From positions 1-32,693 of the forward strand of contig JAPWVK010000092.1 in NCBI GenBank assembly GCA_029241965.1: a stretch of 32,693 bases of DNA. Direction: 5' to 3'. The stretch comes from Candidatus Methanophagales archaeon. Lineage in GTDB: Archaea > Halobacteriota > Syntropharchaeia > Alkanophagales > Methanospirareceae. The notes below the pieces were generated by a model, which was given only the letters and a program-made list of their open reading frames with translations, searched no databases and was not told where the DNA came from. Numbering within the stretch: position 1 is the first letter of the stretch; every line of letters begins with the position of its first letter. Shown piece after piece: positions 9,519 to 21,863 of this stretch. The position numbers and the translations under genes are program-made.

Positions 9519-9928
9519 CTGGCTGCGTTACTTTCGGTGTCTTTTATATAAATTACGTCCTCCACACCTTTAAAAAGCTCATCACCTGTCAAGACAGGTT
9601 TCATATATTATCGCATCGGCCAATCCGAAATTTGGATAGTTTTTTCTCAACTTCTTTTTCGTTTTTTTCCCCCCCCTAATTGCAATCTCTTTTGTCAAAC
9701 AAATAATTTTTGCCTTATCAAGTATGAATTCTAAATCTTCTCTCAGAATTTCCCTCCTTCTCGCTGATATCTATCTGATAGCTCGACCAAAACGATTGTG
9801 GGTGTGGCACAGTTACCATCATCTATGTATTTCTTTGCCATTTTCCAGTATTCAGACCCCTTGAAATATTCAATCCATGCGTTAGCATCAATCACTGCAT
9901 CCCCGCTCTCCAATGAATATGACCTCAT
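9515..9928 (-). pseudogene. Frameshifted PIN-domain (VapC-like) toxin gene
   Basis: The reverse strand encodes a PIN start (AVIDANAWIEYFKGS, then IVLVELSDRYQ) that hits a stop after 61 codons, near 9743. The rest continues in another frame as REILREDLEFILDKAK, KEIAIRGG, and YPNFGLADAIIYET. It then shifts again near 9605 to PVLTGDELFKGVEDVIYI and ends at 9515. All PIN acidic motifs are still recognisable across three frames, so this is a recently broken toxin gene. A G run and an A run (about 9659-9678) lie in the middle segment. Its start overlaps the end of the intact vapC, and its end overlaps the preceding plus-strand gene by a few bases. Confidence 0.75.
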
Positions 9929-10319
9929 TTGTATTAATTTTGTTTCGAAATACCTTATCCGCAGTAATAAGATTACATCTTTTGAATCTACCGACTGCTA
10001 AATATACGTTATCATAAATTGTTGTATCCGTATCTAATGCGGAATCCATTGCCTCTGATATGATTTCCTTAGTAGATGATACTACCTCAAAATCTGTTGA
10101 GTATATATCTTCAATCAGTTCAAGTTTTTCTTCCAGTGACAGTACCATATTATATCTTATTGCATTTGAGACTTCGTAAAACATTAAATCAGGAACGACA
10201 ACATCAAGTTCTTGCCCAAAAAATCTATCTCTTATTCTCAGCGCAATATCTGTATACTCTTCTTCGCAAAACCACTTCACGATTATCGATGCGTCTAATA
10301 CTACTGTTTCTTTCGCCAT
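9888..10319 (-). CDS. vapC: VapC-family PIN-domain ribonuclease toxin
   Basis: This 143-aa PIN protein has the first catalytic Asp in VVLDASIIVKWF (Asp9), the conserved Glu in FYEVSNAI, and the C-terminal acidic cluster in TIYDNVYLAVGRFKRCNLITADKVF. VapC toxins cleave RNA, usually tRNA or rRNA, and are held inactive by the partner VapB. It overlaps the upstream vapB by 19 bases. No frame defect is seen, so the toxin should be functional. Confidence 0.88.
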   Translation of the reverse strand: MAKETVVLDASIIVKWFCEEEYTDIALRIRDRFFGQELDVVVPDLMFYEVSNAIRYNMVLSLEEKLELIEDIYSTDFEVVSSTKEIISEAMDSALDTDTTIYDNVYLAVGRFKRCNLITADKVFRNKINTNEVIFIGERGCSD

Positions 10320-10683: not shown

Positions 10684-12882
10684 TTACTTTCGTCTTCTGA
10701 GTACAAGGTAAGCAATCGCTAACAAGCCTGCAATGGCAAATATGCCTCCGAATCCTGGTGTTGTCGGTTCTTCAGCAGGTTCCTCAGCAGGTTCCTCAAC
10801 TACAGGTTCCTCAACTACAGGTTCCTCAACTGGTTCCTCCGCTTTGCCTGCTCCTATATTTACCGTCGTTTCATATGTATTACCATCACCATCGTCTGCC
10901 TTCACTATGTATGTTCCTATTTTCGCATCTGTTGTGTCGAATGTTGCATTGAACGTACCGTTTTCTGCAGGGACTGTCGCCGGCGTTAGCTCTGTCGGTC
11001 CTTTAACCGTGACGACAATAGTAAATCCTTCCTCTCGGTTGGTCGTTCCTGATACGTCCAGAGGTTCTCCACTGGCCACATCTGCTACTGGATTAAGTTC
11101 TACATATGGTGATTCTACATTTACCATGTCCATCCATAAGAGGTCATCACTTAATGACATTATATCCAGTATTACCTCCAGTATCTCGTCCTGTGTCCTG
11201 GTCTTGAGCGAATAGTCCGCTAAAGCCTTTTCAATTGTAGTCCAGTCCTTACCGCTGCCATACCACTCATTTGCGCCTTTGGTGAGCACCATAACGAGAT
11301 ATCGTCCAGTATCAGAGTTATCGTCAACGGTGATCTTCTTGTAGAATGAATCATCGCTTGTCGTAACCGAGGTTTTCCCTATATACATCTCCTTCTTCGA
11401 GCTATATTCTATGTTTGTACCACTGTAACCCTTGGGTGCTACTATTAGTATATCTACGTCCTTTGATCCCTTGGCAGTACCGGTGATCGTGAAATCATCG
11501 CCCTGCGCTACACTATTGGTTGATAGCTCTGCCGTCAAATCGCCTCTTGTCATTAATATCGCAATCGAACCATCGTCTTTTTCGTCGTCCTTTATGTCAC
11601 CTTTTCCTTCATCTCTGTCTATATACGCTCTCAATCGCACGGAACCCGGAATTTGGAATGCCGCAGGCGCCGTCTCTGAGCTTGTATCTATCTCCTCCTC
11701 AAATTCGCCATTCTCATCTATTACGATAGCATCCAGTTTCTGGACTACCTCGTCATCTACTGCAATAGTCACTGTGTCACCCGTATTTGAGGTACCCTTA
11801 ATATTAAACCGCTGCCCTATTACTACTGTACCTGGGATGTCAAATATAACTGCTTTGTCTGTTACTGTTATGTCAACGGTATCATACGATCCCTCTTCAT
11901 CATTATCATCCACTCTAATCGTAAATGCGCCTGTATCGTTGAATTCAACCGCGTAGGTCCTCATACCGTCATCGTCTATTGTGTCATTGAACTTATTAGT
12001 CGTTTTATCTCTTGGGTTGTTATCAATCCCCGCAGGGAAATATACATTTTTAGTTAAAGGGTCTGCTTTCACCGTGACCTCATGACCGGCTACACCCGTT
12101 ACTGTGAGTTTTACAACTTCGAGTTCAGGTACTTCTGTCGTATCCGCTTTTATGGCTACCGTCCCTTTTATCATGTTCAGCTCCCTTTTGGGGCTCTGTT
12201 CATCCAAGTTACATGCGTTTTCCGGTTTAGTCTTCACCTGGAATGTGTAATGACCTACATCCCAGCCTGTGGTGTCAATGGCGCCGTCACCTGTAAAACC
12301 AGCCAGAGTACTCACTTTTATGCCTTTGAAGTTATAAGTTTTGCCATTCACCTTCTTAGTTGTTATCTGTCCTTTAGGACCTATTACAACGAGATCAACA
12401 ATGTCATCCTCAAACAGGTTTATCCCACCAACATCTATGGTAAGTGGAGTAGTCCTGGCAATTGACGACACTGTTTTATCCTCTACTTTCAGTTTCAGTG
12501 GCATATCTGGGTCCGAGAATGAAAGCTGTGCATCTTTCGTCCCTGCTCTTTCTTTGTAATTCACATAAAAAGACCCATCTTTCTTCCACTCACTTCCTGA
12601 TATTACAAGCCGGTTGTTGGCATCTGCCATTTTCGTCCATTCCACTGCTTCCTTCACTCGATATATTGTTACTTTATCTGCTCCCCAATTAGTACTGAAA
12701 TCCAACTCTTGACCGATTAACGCTGATTGCACTGTTACCCCTGCATCATTTTTGATGATATTGTATTTTCCACCATCGCTGTAAGCACCAGTACTTCCGA
12801 TCATCGCGACCATAACAGAAGCCACCATAATCGCTGCCAGTGCAATGCCTATAATCGCTTTTCCTCTCTTTCTTGTTTCCAT
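10684..12882 (-). CDS. S-layer-type surface protein with PGF-CTERM sorting signal
   Basis: This 732-aa exported protein has a long signal peptide (KAIIGIALAAIMVASVMVAMI, ending near GSTGA). The mature start, YSDGGKYNIIKNDAGVTVQSALIGQ, is typical of a euryarchaeal surface-protein family, and several beta-sandwich/Ig-like segments follow. Near the C-terminus is a low-complexity EEPVVEEP/EEPAEEP linker, then the archaeosortase signal PGFGGIFAIAGLLAIAYLVL with a basic RRRK end. PGF-CTERM proteins are cut by archaeosortase A and attached to a lipid. The linker spaces the protein from the membrane. A strong AGGAGGTGA site precedes the ATG, consistent with high expression. It could be the main S-layer protein or one of several paralogues. 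Confidence 0.88.
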   Translation of the reverse strand: METRKRGKAIIGIALAAIMVASVMVAMIGSTGAYSDGGKYNIIKNDAGVTVQSALIGQELDFSTNWGADKVTIYRVKEAVEWTKMADANNRLVISGSEWKKDGSFYVNYKERAGTKDAQLSFSDPDMPLKLKVEDKTVSSIARTTPLTIDVGGINLFEDDIVDLVVIGPKGQITTKKVNGKTYNFKGIKVSTLAGFTGDGAIDTTGWDVGHYTFQVKTKPENACNLDEQSPKRELNMIKGTVAIKADTTEVPELEVVKLTVTGVAGHEVTVKADPLTKNVYFPAGIDNNPRDKTTNKFNDTIDDDGMRTYAVEFNDTGAFTIRVDDNDEEGSYDTVDITVTDKAVIFDIPGTVVIGQRFNIKGTSNTGDTVTIAVDDEVVQKLDAIVIDENGEFEEEIDTSSETAPAAFQIPGSVRLRAYIDRDEGKGDIKDDEKDDGSIAILMTRGDLTAELSTNSVAQGDDFTITGTAKGSKDVDILIVAPKGYSGTNIEYSSKKEMYIGKTSVTTSDDSFYKKITVDDNSDTGRYLVMVLTKGANEWYGSGKDWTTIEKALADYSLKTRTQDEILEVILDIMSLSDDLLWMDMVNVESPYVELNPVADVASGEPLDVSGTTNREEGFTIVVTVKGPTELTPATVPAENGTFNATFDTTDAKIGTYIVKADDGDGNTYETTVNIGAGKAEEPVEEPVVEEPVVEEPAEEPAEEPTTPGFGGIFAIAGLLAIAYLVLRRRK
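10769..10839. repeat. Minisatellite encoding the EEPVVEEP linker
   Basis: Tandem copies of GGTTCCTCA(A/G)C(T/A)(A/G)CA units encode the acidic, proline-rich linker before the PGF-CTERM anchor. Such units expand and contract easily, so linker length may vary between strains. Confidence 0.7.
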
Positions 12883-14301: not shown

Positions 14302-14370
14302 TTTTTTTGCGAAGCAAAAAAACGCGTAAGCGTTCTTTTGGTAAAGCTTTTCTTTCTAAGAAAAGGTTTA
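14302..14370. repeat. Triple hairpin between convergent genes (family copy 2)
   Basis: Three adjacent small stems occur: TTTTTTTGC-gaa-GCAAAAAAA (14302-14322), AACGC-gtaa-GCGTT (about 14321-14334), and CTTTTC-TTTCTAA-GAAAAG, flanked by TTGGTAAAG and GTTTA (14336-14370). Located between the AK6 and reverse-strand 349-aa genes, they probably end transcription in both directions. Confidence 0.5.
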
Positions 14371-15417
14371 TCTGCTACCCCTAATCCTATCCGCAATTGT
14401 CCTTATCTCGTTCGCGAGCTCATTCAAACTCGCCCGTATCTTCAGCAACTCTCTCGCCGCACCCCGTTGCTCTTCATCCGCACTGCGCGCAAACTTCGTG
14501 GATACCGCATTGATTGCGCTCGACTTCTCTGCTATTCTACCCGAAGTATCATCCAACTCTGATGAAATCTCACTCACATCCATGCCCTTTCCGCCACCGC
14601 GCGAAACATACACATACACAAGCCCCGCACCTAATATCAGGCCCAGCATTACCGCTAAGACGACATAAAGTGTAACAGGTTTCGGCTCTGCTCCTACCGA
14701 TAACTCCTTATAATGCTCTGATAACTTAGACGCCCAGCCCGGATGCCCTTCTTCATATAACTCTTTTATATCCTCTTCCAAGCGGTAGTCCCCGATCTTA
14801 GCTTTCGCATCTTCCAAGTTCTTATCCATCTCGCTCTTCGCTGCTTTTATCCCTTCATTCGTCGAGAAGAACGTCATTGTAGGCTCCAGCTTCTGTACAA
14901 TTGTCTCTAACGTCGCACCATCTCGTGTCGTCCCTACCGTCAGTTCGACATATACCTCCTCCTCGCCTATTCCATAGACGTCATAAGTCTCGAACCCCGG
15001 CTCTTTTACTTTCCTTATCGGTTTGGGGACCTCGCCCGTCAATATTACCTTTGGTACCATACTGTCATGTGCGTCCTTACCCTTCCAGACAATCCAGGTT
15101 GCAGAATGCGAGAACTCATCGCCGAATTTCCATTCCTGGTCATCCAGGTTTGTCCTCAATTCTAACACATAATCATCTAAAATCGGACTCCCTGCTTTAC
15201 TCACATACATGTGGAATTCAAGCATATCACCTTCTAATTGCTCACTATCCACAAAATCCGTATAGTTCTGCTCAATTCCACTATCTAAATTGCGGACATA
15301 CGACTTCTCCCCATCCAGCTTCAGCACTTCCTGAACCGCAGCAGTACCAATTCCTACGGCTAAAAACAAACCTGCAACTGTCAGAACGACAACAAAAATA
15401 CCAACTATGCGTCTCAT
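14368..15417 (-). CDS. Envelope protein with exterior domain, one TM helix and cytoplasmic coiled coil
   Basis: The 349-aa protein starts with a signal sequence (IVGIFVVVLTVAGLFLAVGIG). Residues about 30-245 form an exterior domain, beta-rich first (FHMYVSK, YVLELRTNL) then helical (AKSEMDKNLEDAKAKIGDYRLEEDIKELY). A second TM follows at about 248-270 (LYVVLAVMLGLILGAGLVYVYV), then a cytoplasmic coiled coil of about 75 residues (SSELDDTSGRIAEKSSAINAV to LNELANEIRTIADRI). Its ATG overlaps the stop of the tubulin-like gene by four bases, so the two are coupled. The cytoplasmic coil could dock on the tubulin-like protein. No named family was recognised. Confidence 0.75.
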   Translation of the reverse strand: MRRIVGIFVVVLTVAGLFLAVGIGTAAVQEVLKLDGEKSYVRNLDSGIEQNYTDFVDSEQLEGDMLEFHMYVSKAGSPILDDYVLELRTNLDDQEWKFGDEFSHSATWIVWKGKDAHDSMVPKVILTGEVPKPIRKVKEPGFETYDVYGIGEEEVYVELTVGTTRDGATLETIVQKLEPTMTFFSTNEGIKAAKSEMDKNLEDAKAKIGDYRLEEDIKELYEEGHPGWASKLSEHYKELSVGAEPKPVTLYVVLAVMLGLILGAGLVYVYVSRGGGKGMDVSEISSELDDTSGRIAEKSSAINAVSTKFARSADEEQRGAARELLKIRASLNELANEIRTIADRIRGSR

Positions 15418-18089
15418 TCTTCTTTCCTCCCTATATCCAACGACAAATCAGGTAGTTCTACGCTCTTACCCTTCCGCCCTTCAACAACTACCCCCTCTGC
15501 TTCTTTCCCTTCTGATTCCGTTATACTCTTCAGTTCTTTTAATGCGGATAACAGTGTTGCAAGAGGACTTTCCATCTCTTTTATCCCATTCACCGCTTTC
15601 ATAGTGTTCTCTCGTATCCGCGAAATCTCTGTCTCCGCCTTTGTTATTTGTCTTATCACACTTGAAGAAGTCGCGTCAGAAGGTATATTACCAATAAAAC
15701 CCTTCGCGTTTTCCACGAATACTTCTATGTCGCTACTGAAGCTGTTCGACATATCCTCAATCCGGTCAAGCAATATCTCCATGTTTCGCGTTGAGTCGTC
15801 TATCATCCTCAGCATCTTCCCCGCTTTGTCTTCCGCCGGTCGCCCTGCATCTGTACCTCTCAATCTGGATATTAATTCGTCAAGCTCGTCTTTCAGGTGC
15901 GTAAACCCACGCCCTGCCCCCTTCGTCCACTGTTTTACCTTCTCCATGTTCTTACTCGCATTTTCAAGCTCGTGCACCAGCATCGTAAAATTCGCTATCG
16001 AGTAGCTCTCCGGGTCAGGGACACGCACATTCTTTATATCTCCCGCAATATCCAGCCCGACTAACAAATCATCAAACATCTTCAAGCATTGCGCAAGCAC
16101 GATAGGGATATTATCCCATATTACTTCAGGCTCTATTACCTCGTAACTCTTCCAGTAGCTCGTCACCATATCCCTGTTCTTCTCTTCCGCGCCAGGCGTG
16201 TACGGTATATCAGTGATTAAGGAAAACGGCTTGCTGGTCCCATAAAAGAGCGAATGATGTCTTTGCAGCTTAGAAAAATCACTTTCGTTATACGCCTTTT
16301 CTATCCATTCAAGTTCACGCAGTCGCGGTGGCAGTCCTGGACCTGCAGCCCATGGTTGCAGTCCAATCATAAGCGTATATATAGCAAAACTGTGTGCACG
16401 CGCAGGCGCATCCAGCTTCAGTACGTCTGCGTCTTTTGCAAAACGTTCCGTCACCATGGTCTTGAACGCGCCACCTCCGAGCCGTCCATCATCAAAATTA
16501 TCCGCTCTCGTACTCAATACCGCGATGAAATGCCCGAATTTCTCTTCCTCGTTCACTACATTCCCCTGCGCATCTATCGTCAGGAACCCGTAATCGTTGA
16601 GGATGTCTATATATTTCGATGTCATGGTATTCTCAATCGCATGACGGTAATTTAGCATTGGATTGAATATAACGTCCCCTTCGTTTATCGGTGAATGCGT
16701 CCACCTGAAATACTCGTCCTCTCGATCGAGTTTCTTCATAATCTCTAAGAACGATAGGTTCTTCAGGTCCTCCCTGCTCTTCTTTAACTCGCGTACCTCT
16801 TCTTCTGATAACTCTATCTGATGATAGCTTCGCGTGTTCGTCGGCGTTGTTATCCCACGGAGCAGCTTGTTCTTTAACGCCTCAAGCCGTTCTAATTTCC
16901 GTTCCATCACTCGCTTCTCCTCCTCTGCATCGCTTACTCGTATCTCCAGGTTGAACACGCCTTCTTTCAAATCCGATAATTTCTTCTTCGCTCTATTCAG
17001 TTTCGCCTTGGCATCCGCGGTTGCTCTTGCATTTACATGAGAAAACAGTCCACTTGCCGATTCATATCTATCTATCTCGCGCTGAACCTCTCTTATCCTG
17101 CCATCGAACCGTTCCAATTCACCACGCTGCAAATCTGTTTTTCCCCTTATATCCGCTGTTTTCGCCTCTATCTCTACCAGCCTCTGTCTGACCACCGGTA
17201 TCTCATCCTCAATGTCATAAAAAAGGAACAATTTATCGCTCGGAAATACACACTCGTAATAGCCTAAGGAATCAAACCGATTTTCGTAACCCCTCGCGCG
17301 GTTCTGCAGATCGTTGAGGTCGAGCCACTTACCTTTCGTCTCGACCGTCCCTCCCGGTAGAAATCCAAGATCGAGAAGGAACCTTGGTATTGCCCTTTCC
17401 AGTTCCTCATCCCGATTCTGACCTTGAAGGTCACGCCCTAAAAGGAAGAACAACTTGAAGGGATTCGAATAATTCTTATCCTCTATTATGATGTCTTCGG
17501 TATGTGACATGAGGAAATGAAGCTCTTTCAGCGTACCTAAAGCATTACCAGTTGGGAGCACGGATTCCTTACTCGAAGGCAGAATACCAATCCCAAACAT
17601 CACCGGTTGGGACCCAAACTGTTTTGAAATCCAATCCCGGATGTCTATCGCAACGTCGAGCAGCATACTCGAGCCCGTTCCCCCGCCGAATGCGCAGACC
17701 ATCAGTATGAAGAAGTCCTTACCTCCTGTTCTGTTCCGCAACTCGGATGCGGCTGTCCCTATCGCACTGAATATCCTCTCGCGATGCACGTTATACATCG
17801 CCCTACCGTATATACGATGCTGCCCGCATCCCGCACCGGCAGCCGCAAGATAAGGATCGGGTAACCACCTGTTCGCGTTCTTCATCAATATCGTATCCGG
17901 CCTGTTCAGTACTATCTTTCGCCGCTCTTCTACTTCGGTGCACGCATTTGCTGACGCCTGGTCGGTATCTATAATCAAAAACTCCTCATTCTTCGGCACC
18001 TTACCTGTCTTGGTCTTGAGCATCTTCAACAGGTTGTTTACGATACTGCCTCCTTGCCCTCCTATTCCTATTACTATCCGGTTTACCAT
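15414..18089 (-). CDS. Large tubulin-superfamily GTPase with inserted coiled coil
   Basis: The 891-aa protein begins MVNRIVIGIGGQGGSIVNNLL, a tubulin/FtsZ-type nucleotide-binding start. It has the tubulin T4 signature CAFGGGTGSSMLLDVA at 133-148, followed by FGIGILPSSKESVLPTGNA. This resembles the Pfam Tubulin_2 (tubulin-like) group rather than FtsZ or CetZ. A long coiled coil (about 300-412, RQRLVEIEAKTADIRG to LERLEALKNKL) interrupts the protein, and a helical C-terminal region of over 150 residues follows. The start at 18089 has GGGAGAGG upstream; a further ATG lies at 18107. No membrane segment. Likely a GTP-dependent cytoskeletal polymer; neighbours on both sides are membrane proteins with cytoplasmic coils. 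Confidence 0.85.
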   Translation of the reverse strand: MVNRIVIGIGGQGGSIVNNLLKMLKTKTGKVPKNEEFLIIDTDQASANACTEVEERRKIVLNRPDTILMKNANRWLPDPYLAAAGAGCGQHRIYGRAMYNVHRERIFSAIGTAASELRNRTGGKDFFILMVCAFGGGTGSSMLLDVAIDIRDWISKQFGSQPVMFGIGILPSSKESVLPTGNALGTLKELHFLMSHTEDIIIEDKNYSNPFKLFFLLGRDLQGQNRDEELERAIPRFLLDLGFLPGGTVETKGKWLDLNDLQNRARGYENRFDSLGYYECVFPSDKLFLFYDIEDEIPVVRQRLVEIEAKTADIRGKTDLQRGELERFDGRIREVQREIDRYESASGLFSHVNARATADAKAKLNRAKKKLSDLKEGVFNLEIRVSDAEEEKRVMERKLERLEALKNKLLRGITTPTNTRSYHQIELSEEEVRELKKSREDLKNLSFLEIMKKLDREDEYFRWTHSPINEGDVIFNPMLNYRHAIENTMTSKYIDILNDYGFLTIDAQGNVVNEEEKFGHFIAVLSTRADNFDDGRLGGGAFKTMVTERFAKDADVLKLDAPARAHSFAIYTLMIGLQPWAAGPGLPPRLRELEWIEKAYNESDFSKLQRHHSLFYGTSKPFSLITDIPYTPGAEEKNRDMVTSYWKSYEVIEPEVIWDNIPIVLAQCLKMFDDLLVGLDIAGDIKNVRVPDPESYSIANFTMLVHELENASKNMEKVKQWTKGAGRGFTHLKDELDELISRLRGTDAGRPAEDKAGKMLRMIDDSTRNMEILLDRIEDMSNSFSSDIEVFVENAKGFIGNIPSDATSSSVIRQITKAETEISRIRENTMKAVNGIKEMESPLATLLSALKELKSITESEGKEAEGVVVEGRKGKSVELPDLSLDIGRKEE

Positions 18090-18117
18090 GTCCTCTCCCT
18101 TCTCCATAACTCCGGCA

Positions 18118-18558
18118 TCAAACCTCCTTATCTTTCGATTCGTAATCCGTCATCTTCGTCTTTATCGCATCCATCTCATCGTCAAAATGCTCTATTTCCA
18201 TCTCACTTCCCCTTATATCGCTATCTATACCTGCAACCGCGCTATCAATACTTTTTGCCGCGCTGGCAATCTTCTTCGCTTCCTTCTCCCCTTTGAACCA
18301 TACCACAATCCCAAATACTCCAAATAAAATGCCAACTGCAAGCAACACGTATATCACAACAAGCGCAGCCGACTCGGATAAAGAAATGAGAATCTTATCT
18401 CGGTATTCATTCAATACAAATGCGATAGTGGCGCATATCACACCAATGACTGGCATAAGAAGAAGCCCCTTGTCCACCTTCAACTTTATCAGCATCAACA
18501 CTACTTCCGCAATTATCAGCAGAACAACGACAAGTATTCCTATACTTAATGGTTCCAT
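18118..18558 (-). CDS. Three-TM protein with cytoplasmic coiled-coil tail
   Basis: This 146-aa protein starts at ATG 18558, six bases after AAGGAGGTC; the in-frame TTG at 18564 is not needed. It has three hydrophobic helices (SIGILVVVLLIIAEVVLMLI; LLLMPVIGVICATIAFVL; ALVVIYVLLAVGILFGVFGIVVWF) and a C-terminal helix (KKIASAAKSIDSAVAGIDSDI to DEMDAIKTKMTDYESK) with coiled-coil spacing. Its stop is 28 bases before the tubulin-like start, within the same reverse-strand operon. It plausibly recruits the polymer to the membrane. No named family was recognised. Confidence 0.7.
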   Translation of the reverse strand: MEPLSIGILVVVLLIIAEVVLMLIKLKVDKGLLLMPVIGVICATIAFVLNEYRDKILISLSESAALVVIYVLLAVGILFGVFGIVVWFKGEKEAKKIASAAKSIDSAVAGIDSDIRGSEMEIEHFDDEMDAIKTKMTDYESKDKEV

Positions 18559-18590
18559 AATCAAGACCTCCTTTGCATATTTCTAATAAA

Positions 18591-19862
18591 TTATTGCTTC
18601 GCTTTTATATACTTTAACCTCTCGGAATCATACGCCAGCCGCGAATTCGCATCGGATGCTAAGAGCCTATATCGGCGAACGAAGTCTTTGAGGTCTGATG
18701 TTGTCATTGACTTGAGTTCCGCGATCTCGCTCATCTTATCTCGCGTCCAATATTCCACTGGATATAACTCCGTTGTCGGGTCCGCCTTCAGTATTTCCTC
18801 TTCCGTATTGAATATATTGTTATAAACCGCCTCCAGAGCGGCTATGGACAAAATTATGAGTGCATCGCCATACCCCCTCAGCTTACGCATCTGAGAAGGC
18901 AACATGCACCCCTCTACGCTTCCACGCAACTCCTCTATCTCCTTCTTATCCCCCTCTTCTTCTTCGCCCAAAACTTCAACTACTACGTCTGTCAACGCAA
19001 GCGTGTCCTCTTTATAACGTTCAAACATGCCCTCTAACATCTTGCTCAATCTTACAATCACGCTATTCAATACTTTCGATGCGCTCTCGTAGTTTCCGCT
19101 CTCTATGCTATGCTCAACCATCTTTAGGTCGGTTCGGACTCTGGCGGTGTCTGCATTTGCTGTCTCTCGCCCTTCCGCTTCTAAACCGTGTGCATCATGC
19201 AAACATGCTCTCAACGCTTCTTCTATTATTGATACCACCTCATTCATGAACATGGAAAGTTCAAGAGAGTCCTTCCTCAGGTTCTCCTCTTCCATTATCT
19301 TTGATTCTATCTGCTCTATACTGCCCCGAATATCCTCGTATCCTGCATCTTCAAGCGTTCTTAACTCTTCCAGGTAATTCCGGCATCTGTCTATCACCCG
19401 GGAATAAAGCACGACTTCATGTCGCTCTCTTATCCCCTCAAACATCTTAGTTATCCATTCAACATCAGCAAAAACCACGTTCCTTTGTTTCGCGCTGTCT
19501 ATCCTGACCCAGCCATTTACCTCGCAGCCCAGTTCGATAAAACCTTTTTTTACCTTATCCAGCTCATTTCGGAATTCTTTCGTGCTTATATCGTATTTGT
19601 CTTCGAAATCGTGTAGTATCCGCATCTGTTCTACATACTGATTCGCTATCCCCTCAATGTCCCGCGTCATCACCTTCTCCCTTACGCTTCCCTCCCGTAC
19701 CGTAGCGAGGTACCGAACTAAAAAAGCGGCTCCTATCATCGCGGGGATAAAGATAAGAATAATAGTTATCGCAATGTCCGACCCTGTACTGAAGAGAATG
19801 AAGATACCAAGAGCGATCAATCCTAAAAGCACCAGCGGAACAAGTACATTATATCTCCTCAT
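18591..19862 (-). CDS. Two-TM protein with long cytoplasmic helical domain
   Basis: The 423-aa protein has two N-terminal TM helices (VLVPLVLLGLIALGIFILF, about 6-24; IAITIILIFIPAMIGAAFLV, about 30-49) joined by a very short loop. A helical region of about 370 residues follows, with coiled-coil-like stretches (GIANQYVEQMRILHDFEDKY; EQIESKIMEEENLRKDSLEL). It ends KDFVRRYRLLASDANSRL. The hairpin topology places almost all of the protein in the cytoplasm. Its start overlaps the end of the degenerate tubulin-like gene by 14 bases. I infer a scaffold in the tubulin-like apparatus; the family is unknown. Confidence 0.75.
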   Translation of the reverse strand: MRRYNVLVPLVLLGLIALGIFILFSTGSDIAITIILIFIPAMIGAAFLVRYLATVREGSVREKVMTRDIEGIANQYVEQMRILHDFEDKYDISTKEFRNELDKVKKGFIELGCEVNGWVRIDSAKQRNVVFADVEWITKMFEGIRERHEVVLYSRVIDRCRNYLEELRTLEDAGYEDIRGSIEQIESKIMEEENLRKDSLELSMFMNEVVSIIEEALRACLHDAHGLEAEGRETANADTARVRTDLKMVEHSIESGNYESASKVLNSVIVRLSKMLEGMFERYKEDTLALTDVVVEVLGEEEEGDKKEIEELRGSVEGCMLPSQMRKLRGYGDALIILSIAALEAVYNNIFNTEEEILKADPTTELYPVEYWTRDKMSEIAELKSMTTSDLKDFVRRYRLLASDANSRLAYDSERLKYIKAKQ

Positions 19863-20769
19863 GCGCAGACCCCCTTATATCTCGCAGTCTCCCCAATTGC
19901 TCAAACTTATAAGTGAACAAATTAGTCACCGCCGCCATGTTTCCCGTTGTAGCGGAAACCGCCAGATGACTCTCCTTTGAATAAGTAAGCAAGAACTCTT
20001 CAATTAATTTCTTATCCCCACTCCCGCTTCTGGTATAAAACTTGGGCACACTGAGGAAACAGACGCTCTTCTCACAGCCTATAGGTGCATCAGAAACGCT
20101 AAACTTCTCCTGTGAAACACGAAGAAGCGTTCTGAGGTCAAGCGGTTTGTGCCTTATAAAAGGGACGATATAACCTGGCAATCCCTTTGTAAGCTCCGAA
20201 GCGCGCGATACCGCCACATATCCAGGCTCATTATCGAAAGACAACGCCTGCACTACCTCATCTATATGCAATGATTGTGTCTCAGACTTGGCTGGCGATT
20301 TCTTTACATGAATCCCGGCAAGAATATCCGCGGCGCAAGAGGCGATATATCTGTTATACCGTGGATAAAACTCCTTGTAGTTTGGATGGTGCGCTATCCT
20401 CTGGTTATCCACGATTATAAAAGAATTCACGTACTCTTTTAGCTTCTCCAATGATTGATATGCACTTATTATCGCCTTCTCCTCTTCTCTTCTACTCGCA
20501 GGCAGAACGCCCCAAAAAAGCGTCTTTATGTTTTGCGCAGACAATATTTCTGCTACGTGATGTGATATACTGCTATCGCTAAAACTCGCGAATAGGAAAG
20601 CGAAATCAACGCTCTTTGCACTCTCTAACGGTGCCTCTATCTTCGCATTATCGCTCTCTGACTGAGACATGATAACGATCGGTTTGGCTTTTTTTACCTC
20701 TTTGTATTCCAACAGAGCGTTAAGAATTGCACTTCCAGCGTTTCCTAATCCAACAAATAGATGTGTCAT
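19849..20769 (-). CDS. Degenerate tubulin/FtsZ-like protein lacking the T4 GTP loop
   Basis: This 306-aa protein starts with an FtsZ-like Rossmann strand and glycine loop (THLFVGLGNAGSAILNALL). It preserves the order of an FtsZ GTPase domain, including KTLFWGVLPASRREEEKA, the paired helix LEKLKEYVNSFIIVDNQRI (compare NDRL of FtsZ), and a later CAADILAGI. At the position of the tubulin signature GGGTGTG (about 61-69) the sequence reads ASFSDSSIS, so the phosphate-binding loop is lost. It therefore probably does not hydrolyse GTP and may cap or regulate the large tubulin-like protein. It is the first gene of the reverse-strand operon; a TATA-like GCATATAAA about 20 bases upstream implies a short or absent leader. 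Confidence 0.65.
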   Translation of the reverse strand: MTHLFVGLGNAGSAILNALLEYKEVKKAKPIVIMSQSESDNAKIEAPLESAKSVDFAFLFASFSDSSISHHVAEILSAQNIKTLFWGVLPASRREEEKAIISAYQSLEKLKEYVNSFIIVDNQRIAHHPNYKEFYPRYNRYIASCAADILAGIHVKKSPAKSETQSLHIDEVVQALSFDNEPGYVAVSRASELTKGLPGYIVPFIRHKPLDLRTLLRVSQEKFSVSDAPIGCEKSVCFLSVPKFYTRSGSGDKKLIEEFLLTYSKESHLAVSATTGNMAAVTNLFTYKFEQLGRLRDIRGSAHEEI

Positions 20770-20909: not shown

Positions 20910-21863
20910 ATGAAGAAGCGAAATTTGATTGCATTAACGTTAATCATAATTAATATCCTGGCGTTCTCCACGCCTGCAGAGGGATCCGATGCACTGAAGC
21001 GGGACCTGCTTGAGGATATTTTATCGCTGAACAAGCCAGATTTATTTGACGACTATGGTGAGTTATCACTTGCAAAGGCAGAGACACAAGCGGTAATTCA
21101 GGGTATGGAAGGCGTGGAAGTTACCTATACAACAAAGGAGTGGGGAACTATCCTTCTCAAAATTGTTGATGAGTTTGAACAGATGGCAACGTTAAGCGAA
21201 AGCCAAAAGCCATCTGACCATAAAGAAGCACTAAAAAAAGCGGATACGATAAATACATCCATAAACTCGCTCAGCCGATACGCCACTGCGGAACGAAATG
21301 GCATACCAATGCTTGCAGAGCGTGCGCTTAAGCGCTTTTACCGGGGCGAGGGGAAAATCTTCGAGGACATGGCTACTAATACGGCAGAGACAAAGGTGAG
21401 GGTTGAATATGAGTATTTAAGTTCAGCGTCATACGGTGAAGGTGGCATGCCCAGTGACGCAAGCAGAATGAAGTTCGAGGCGAGGCGAGACGAAAGGAAA
21501 TATAAAAGGGATATGGAAAGTGCATCGGAATATATAAACGCATCACGGGCGCACCTTGCCAATGCAAGAAACCCTCCTTCGGGATTCTTTGGCACCGCGT
21601 TTATGGCTATAATGAAAGCGAGGAATTCATACGAGAACGCGGAGGGGTTATATCAAAAACACAGCGATAAGGAACTGGAGAATGTAAAAGGGCTTGAAGA
21701 TGAGATAAAAAGTGTTTATCAACGGTTGACGCTTGATACGCTCAAGGTCATTGCGATTTATCTTCTTATCCTTTCCTTCATTACTGTAATAATATGGATA
21801 GATTTCAGAAGATGGGGTGATGAGTTGGATGACACGCGACTTGGCGAGGAGCTTATTGTTTGA
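20910..21863 (+). CDS. Exported helical protein with C-terminal TM anchor and acidic tail
   Basis: The 317-aa protein has a signal peptide (KKRNLIALTLIIINILAFS, cleavage near TPAEG), a largely helical exterior domain of about 250 residues, and a C-terminal TM helix (VIAIYLLILSFITVIIWI). A 20-residue cytoplasmic tail ends ELDDTRLGEELIV. An AAGGAGG lies about 22 bases before the ATG, farther than usual. The last 61 bases are duplicated at 22621-22681. The TGA stop uses one base of the inserted sequence; before the insertion the frame would have ended in TAA at the same codon. It diverges from the tubulin-like operon and is probably part of the same system. Confidence 0.75.
   Translation: MKKRNLIALTLIIINILAFSTPAEGSDALKRDLLEDILSLNKPDLFDDYGELSLAKAETQAVIQGMEGVEVTYTTKEWGTILLKIVDEFEQMATLSESQKPSDHKEALKKADTINTSINSLSRYATAERNGIPMLAERALKRFYRGEGKIFEDMATNTAETKVRVEYEYLSSASYGEGGMPSDASRMKFEARRDERKYKRDMESASEYINASRAHLANARNPPSGFFGTAFMAIMKARNSYENAEGLYQKHSDKELENVKGLEDEIKSVYQRLTLDTLKVIAIYLLILSFITVIIWIDFRRWGDELDDTRLGEELIV
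21801..21861 (+). repeat. 61-bp exact direct repeat, copy 1
   Basis: Identical to 22621-22681 over 61 bases, beginning GATTTCAGAAGATGGGG and ending GCTTATTGTTT. The copies are offset by 820 bases and bound the decayed toxin-antitoxin cassette. This copy encodes the end of the 317-aa protein. Confidence 0.97.

Follow-up and report, generated by a model that had tools for sequence, protein, structure and literature searches.

A degenerate tubulin/FtsZ-fold protein and its predicted membrane partner in a gene cluster of ANME-1 archaea

Related systems and the gene cluster

Tubulin-superfamily proteins are generally treated as GTP-driven polymers. Degenerate eukaryotic FtsZ-like proteins with reduced GTPase features, such as plant ARC3 and Misato, are thought to be regulators or adaptors. 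In archaea, FtsZ paralogues lacking key motifs have already been noted (PMC2875224), so that inactive members of the superfamily are known in outline. According to the portion of the text used here, Halo.Tub (PMC9871819, Santana-Molina et al.) comprises paralogues of the tubulin superfamily in Halobacterota that belong to neither FtsZ nor CetZ, in several quasi-tandem copies; that portion mentions neither a membrane gene between the copies, nor versions from Hydrothermarchaeota and Methanoperedens, nor an ANME-1 member without GTP loops. For the FtsZl1/Tubulin_2 family (PF13809; Makarova and Koonin 2010, PMC2875224) a membrane-remodelling context was proposed, and a vWA gene is present in most of its operons.

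The window analysed here is a stretch of 32,693 nucleotides from a Candidatus Methanophagales (ANME-1) archaeon (contig JAPWVK010000092.1). It harbours the following genes, with the topology of M, T, S, U and V predicted by hydropathy:

14368-15417, minus strand: S, 349-aa protein with an N-terminal hydrophobic segment, a TM segment at 245-273 and a C-terminal tail
15414-18107, minus strand: F, 897-aa FtsZl1/Tubulin_2 GTPase with an intact GGGTGSS and a long coiled coil
18118-18564, minus strand: T, 148-aa protein with about three TM segments
18591-19862, minus strand: M, 423-aa membrane protein whose N-terminal end has one long hydrophobic segment (3-55), followed by a hydrophilic remainder that is probably coiled coil
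19849-20769, minus strand: P0001 (ZA-deg), 306-aa degenerate tubulin/FtsZ-fold protein
20910-21863, plus strand: U, 317-aa protein, divergently transcribed, with a signal segment and a C-terminal TM segment
22637-25177, plus strand: V, 846-aa protein with Ig-like domains, a signal segment and a C-terminal TM segment

The gene of P0001 overlaps that of M by 14 nt, and the plus strand at 19849-20769 holds no corresponding frame. An earlier note, made from the sequence, had P0001 begin an operon that also encodes an intact tubulin-like GTPase of 891 aa. This is in agreement with the gene order, in which P0001 is the first of five minus-strand genes, and with F, which retains GIGGQGG and GGGTGSS and matches PF13809 with 78.7 bits; the protein, however, has 897 aa when started at the first ATG, and the 891 aa of the note correspond to a start at the next Met. 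Whereas F is a member of FtsZl1, P0001 gave no PF13809 match and belongs to a different clade. The scan of the cluster proteins gave no vWA gene. Weak Sec8_N and SMC matches of F, located within or close to the coiled coil predicted for it, were left unused. The window also encodes a 732-aa PGF-CTERM surface protein near the cluster (10684-12882, minus strand), similar to the MEMAR_RS02690 S-layer glycoproteins (72 bits, under the model cut-off), and a stand-alone PIN-domain (VapC-like) gene (9888-10319, minus strand) with no adjoining antitoxin recognised.

About 60 loci were retrieved from 295 genomes belonging to the phylum and from 84,980 species genomes. Classes were decided from the position of the gene and from the tree rather than from the iterated Z profile alone, which matches FtsZl1 and further paralogues as well. 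Loci L071-L101 and L105 (e.g. L082:5555-12607 and L072:5433-15924) are operons with two GTPase genes, ZA and ZB, on either side of M. The order in Hydrothermarchaeota and Methanoperedens is V-U (divergent)-ZA-M-ZB, with a few extra genes inserted in Methanoperedens, and that of haloarchaea is ZC-ZA-M-ZB with U downstream. M possesses hydrophobic segments at its start and a hydrophilic, probably coiled-coil remainder, and U and V possess signal-like and C-terminal TM segments. As ZB carries GGGTGNG and the T7 D..D pair, and the ZA motifs are intact, both are probable GTPases. A regular-expression result indicating T4 loss in ZB and ZC was rejected, since the alignments show GGGTGNG and TKGTGCG, respectively. 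ZC, a third haloarchaeal paralogue upstream of ZA (L083-L101, e.g. L085:4867-6861), has an N-terminal zinc-finger-like CxxC...H stretch, the T1 loop GVGGAGN and the unusual T4 loop TKGTGCG. The intact haloarchaeal ZA, ZB and ZC probably correspond to the Halo.Tub group of PMC9871819.

The order in ANME-1 is V-U (divergent)-degenerate ZA-M-T-FtsZl1-S, the same as in Ca. Syntrophoarchaeum. In both, ZB is gone and the FtsZl1 (Tubulin_2) gene stands in its place. As the arrangement is common to the two, the operon change predates their split. Small unrelated genes are inserted in or after the cluster at two ANME-1 loci (L058:3516-3893, L056:4794-5228), where FtsZl1 genes are missing from the position after M. 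At an ANME-2 locus (L103:8545-16272), intact ZA is found together with FtsZl1-S and with a divergent ZB-like gene that is encoded on the other strand, an arrangement that is possibly a transitional state.

Sequence, fold and descent of P0001

The N-terminus of P0001 (MTHLFVGLGNAGSAI) contains an FtsZ-like T1 loop, GLGNAG, in line with the FtsZ-like start described in the earlier note. GVLP (residues 87-90) and VDNQRI (120-125) are also present, and ASFSDSSIS (61-69) replaces GGGTGTG at the expected place of T4, as that note had read. The Pfam Tubulin/FtsZ model PF00091 matches residues 37-127 with 35.6 bits (gathering score 33), or 37.3 bits with neighbours in frame. Assignment to FtsZ was rejected, as P0001 is far below the cut-off of TIGR00065 (18.3 against 295.2 bits) and falls in a separate clade. 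P0001 lacks the GGGTG[ST]G T4 loop and the catalytic acidic residues of T7. Neither Pfam nor NCBIfam has a dedicated model for ZA or ZB. When the PDB was searched by sequence with P0001 alone, there was no match, and the fold assignment is therefore based on Pfam and the structure model. By its fold and its descent P0001 belongs to the Tubulin/FtsZ superfamily, but it is not classed among the GTPases.

The AlphaFold2 model of P0001, made with 57 relatives in the alignment, reached a pLDDT of 88.8 and a pTM of 0.89. Its best PDB matches were Haloferax CetZ2 and CetZ1 and Methanosaeta CetZ (TM 0.72-0.75 over the query), followed by FtsZ and then by phage TubZ and tubulin. The model comprises S1 to S6 in a Rossmann-like GTPase domain, the core helix H7 with 22 residues, and a C-terminal domain, and T4 is reduced to residues 63-65, between S4 and H4. 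P0001 is thus predicted to have the full tubulin/FtsZ/CetZ fold with an empty and shortened T4 loop. A tubulin N-domain fold with an empty T4 loop is what the earlier note had expected, and its alternative of an unrelated Rossmann fold does not fit these matches. Although CetZ is the nearest solved fold (PDB 4b45, 4b46, 3zid), P0001 differs from it by an identity of 14-16% and by the missing GTP loop. Assignment to CetZ was rejected, as the ZA clade is separate at 100/100.

In the maximum-likelihood tree, the ZA clade has a support of 100/100, and the degenerate ZA of ANME-1 and Syntrophoarchaeum are nested at 100/99 among intact members, which are GTPases of 380-430 aa from Hydrothermarchaeota, Methanoperedens, ANME-2 and haloarchaea. 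FtsZ, CetZ, FtsZl1, ZB and ZC form separate groups, with several long terminal branches and an uncertain placement of the ZB from L103. Because of the nested position, P0001 is a decayed GTPase and not a primitive one. Its monophyly with intact ZA and its linkage with M and the divergent U and V identify it, at the level of sequence, as the ANME-1 descendant of ZA, one of two GTPases of the tubulin superfamily in an envelope-associated system of archaea (ZA-M-ZB, near U and V).

The loss of active-site elements could be read as that of a decaying pseudogene or an assembly error. This reading is barely conceivable and was rejected: the T4, T2-T3 and T7 losses are common to 22/22 ANME-1 orthologues, the frame is open in all complete copies, and the predicted full-length fold is confident. 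The dN/dS of close pairs of ANME-1 ZA, about 0.2-0.47 and well below 1, indicates that the degenerate ZA is under selection.

Loss of the nucleotide-binding elements

Column counts were taken from an alignment of 57 rows, comprising 34 intact ZA, 22 degenerate ANME-1 ZA and Syntrophoarchaeum. The elements in P0001 are:

20734-20751, minus strand: T1 loop GLGNAG, residues 7-12, retained, with G7, G9 and G12 in 22/22 degenerate rows
20656-20661, minus strand: site of a deletion of about 60 aa (T2-H2-S3-T3) at residues 37/38, from alignment with intact relatives
20563-20589, minus strand: remnant of the T4 signature loop, ASFSDSSIS, residues 61-69, from sequence and alignment
20395-20412, minus strand: T6 segment VDNQRI, residues 120-125, retained, with VDN in 57/57 rows
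20254-20271, minus strand: remnant of the T7 loop, LHIDEV, residues 167-172, with the catalytic D..D lost
20137-20226, minus strand: S7 and the S7-H9 segment, residues 182-211, the most conserved stretch of the degenerate clade, at the position of the tubulin M-loop

The motifs GGGTG[CS]G (T4), the NS pair of T2, GG.G of T3 and D..D of T7 are each invariant in the 34 intact rows. GGGTGxG occurs in 34/34 intact-clade homologues against 0/22 ANME-1 orthologues, a loss that in these alignments far exceeds chance, and in most of the ANME-1 orthologues the T4 loop is about 3 residues shorter. Beyond the T4 loss described in the earlier note, P0001 lacks the segment from T2 to T3 and the Asp pair of T7. 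The columns NS..D L and V.GG.G are occupied in all 34 intact rows, and all 22 degenerate rows and Syntrophoarchaeum have gaps in the L and V.GG columns. The first Asp of T7 is found in none of the degenerate residues listed and the second in 3 of the 22 rows. The ZA of Syntrophoarchaeum is intermediate, with the same T2-T3 deletion and T7 loss, and with a T4 that is full-length but corrupted (GLGGEIGGT).

VDN of T6 and the Asn of H7 are unchanged in 57/57 rows. By homology, these positions point towards the guanine base, and a weak or altered nucleotide binding by P0001 is therefore possible. Compared to intact ZA, the degenerate proteins are more variable in T4, H4 and T7 (slightly in S2) and less variable elsewhere, with the strongest drop in T6/H6 and from S7 to the S7-H9 segment.

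These losses suggest that P0001 would neither bind nor hydrolyse GTP any more, nor activate the GTP of a neighbour. Since both the phosphate loops and T7 are missing, the usual head-to-tail tubulin contact is unlikely, and P0001 would not polymerise through the nucleotide sandwich.

Genomic partners and proposed role

Of the 51 genomes of the ANME-1 family, 35 have ZA, and precisely these 35 have M; this adjoining membrane coiled-coil gene is the tightest partner of the degenerate ZA. ZA and FtsZl1 were both found in 31 genomes and both absent from 15, including near-complete ones such as G005 (98%) and G064 (92%, in 5 contigs). The remaining 5 are discordant, four with ZA only (one of intact type) and one with FtsZl1 only. 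The Fisher p is 2e-8 (2e-9 without the intact-type genome), a guide only as the genomes are non-independent and many are incomplete. ZA and FtsZl1 also co-occur when unlinked, with other genes after M and FtsZl1 elsewhere (L056, L057, L060, L061, L064, L066). No FtsZl1 gene was found in three genomes with degenerate ZA that are 73-87% complete (G108, G240, G250), so the partner of ZA may be M alone.

ZB never occurs with degenerate ZA, and in the family genomes it is restricted to G284, with an intact-type system; a second match in G133 is weak. The contigs of G284 (L142, L143, L044), an ANME-1-family genome that is 66% complete, are either native or contamination, and G240, which has the same genus code, carries a degenerate ZA. 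Fifteen genomes were reached through such ZA loci, and Syntrophoarchaeum is the only one of them in which ZA is not intact. A strong Tubulin_2 match over the full length was obtained only in Syntrophoarchaeum and in the ANME-2 genome with locus L103.

The earlier note had proposed that P0001 and the intact GTPase are an active/inactive pair, perhaps like alpha/beta tubulin. The tie to the GTPase is borne out by the co-occurrence, even where the genes are unlinked. A filament in which P0001 alternates with the 897-aa FtsZl1, the inactive subunit giving contacts and the active one GTP, is also compatible with their common operon and with the intact relatives, whose operons encode two GTPases, ZA and ZB, so that a heteropolymer is possible for the ancestral module. 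Such mixing is nonetheless quite unlikely. Alpha-tubulin retains its nucleotide and the catalytic T7 residue, and because P0001 has apparently lost both, an alpha/beta-like pairing is disfavoured. P0001 is also devoid of T3 and T4, which make up much of the longitudinal face on the nucleotide side, and FtsZl1 falls on a separate long branch of the tree, so F and P0001 are not duplicates of one subunit. A T7 loop would be available from neither protein, as the FtsZl1 family was reported without recognisable T6-H7 and T7 elements (PMC2875224). For F, the absence of T7 is taken from that report, since its structure model is poor (pLDDT 59).

Subunits with neither nucleotide nor T7 are one-sided, which would make them natural caps. 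P0001 might thus bind the end of FtsZl1 filaments, or of FtsZ or CetZ filaments, and limit assembly, as has been proposed for some degenerate FtsZ-like division regulators such as ARC3 of plants; FtsZ genes are also present in ANME-1-family genomes, and the co-occurrence with FtsZl1 would fit. However, a purely regulatory cap explains neither the invariant tie to M, and not to FtsZl1, nor the conservation of the entire C-terminal half of the degenerate ZA, and we regard it as unlikely. ARC3 and Misato resemble P0001 by description only, in combining a tubulin/FtsZ fold with reduced GTPase features; they belong to a different domain of life and have different partners, and there is no evidence that the losses share descent.

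The perfect co-occurrence of ZA and M, and several genomes that have ZA-M with no FtsZl1 nearby, would also be expected if P0001 were merely a cytoplasmic subunit of an M/U/V envelope complex that forms no filament, with FtsZl1 an independent neighbour. This is distinctly improbable, given that FtsZl1 is present in 31/34 genomes with degenerate ZA and absent from 15/16 without ZA.

The conserved surfaces and the invariant partner M suggest that P0001 is a nucleotide-free adaptor on a membrane complex. We slightly favour, overall, a conserved pseudo-GTPase that serves as a nucleotide-free adaptor or cap docked on M and links the membrane complex to FtsZl1. For docking, P0001 would use its conserved H6-H7 face and S7-H9 segment, which would contact the cytoplasmic part of M, and it would tie the membrane complex to FtsZl1, now the sole GTPase of the module. 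The whole may be a membrane-attached cytoskeletal or envelope-remodelling complex.

The chances are about even that, more widely, an archaeal envelope-spanning module in which a membrane coiled-coil protein is flanked by two GTPases of the tubulin superfamily was rebuilt in ANME-1 and Syntrophoarchaeum, one GTPase becoming a nucleotide-free pseudo-tubulin and the other being replaced by FtsZl1. Neither the intact-to-dead ZA series nor the ZA-M-ZB module was found described in the literature searched. Intact ZA orthologues, the partly decayed protein of Syntrophoarchaeum and the dead P0001 offer a natural series on how the fold may function without GTP. The intact operon occurs in cultivable haloarchaea, which opens the wider module to genetics, and M would be a concrete membrane-protein partner for the FtsZl1 family described in 2010.
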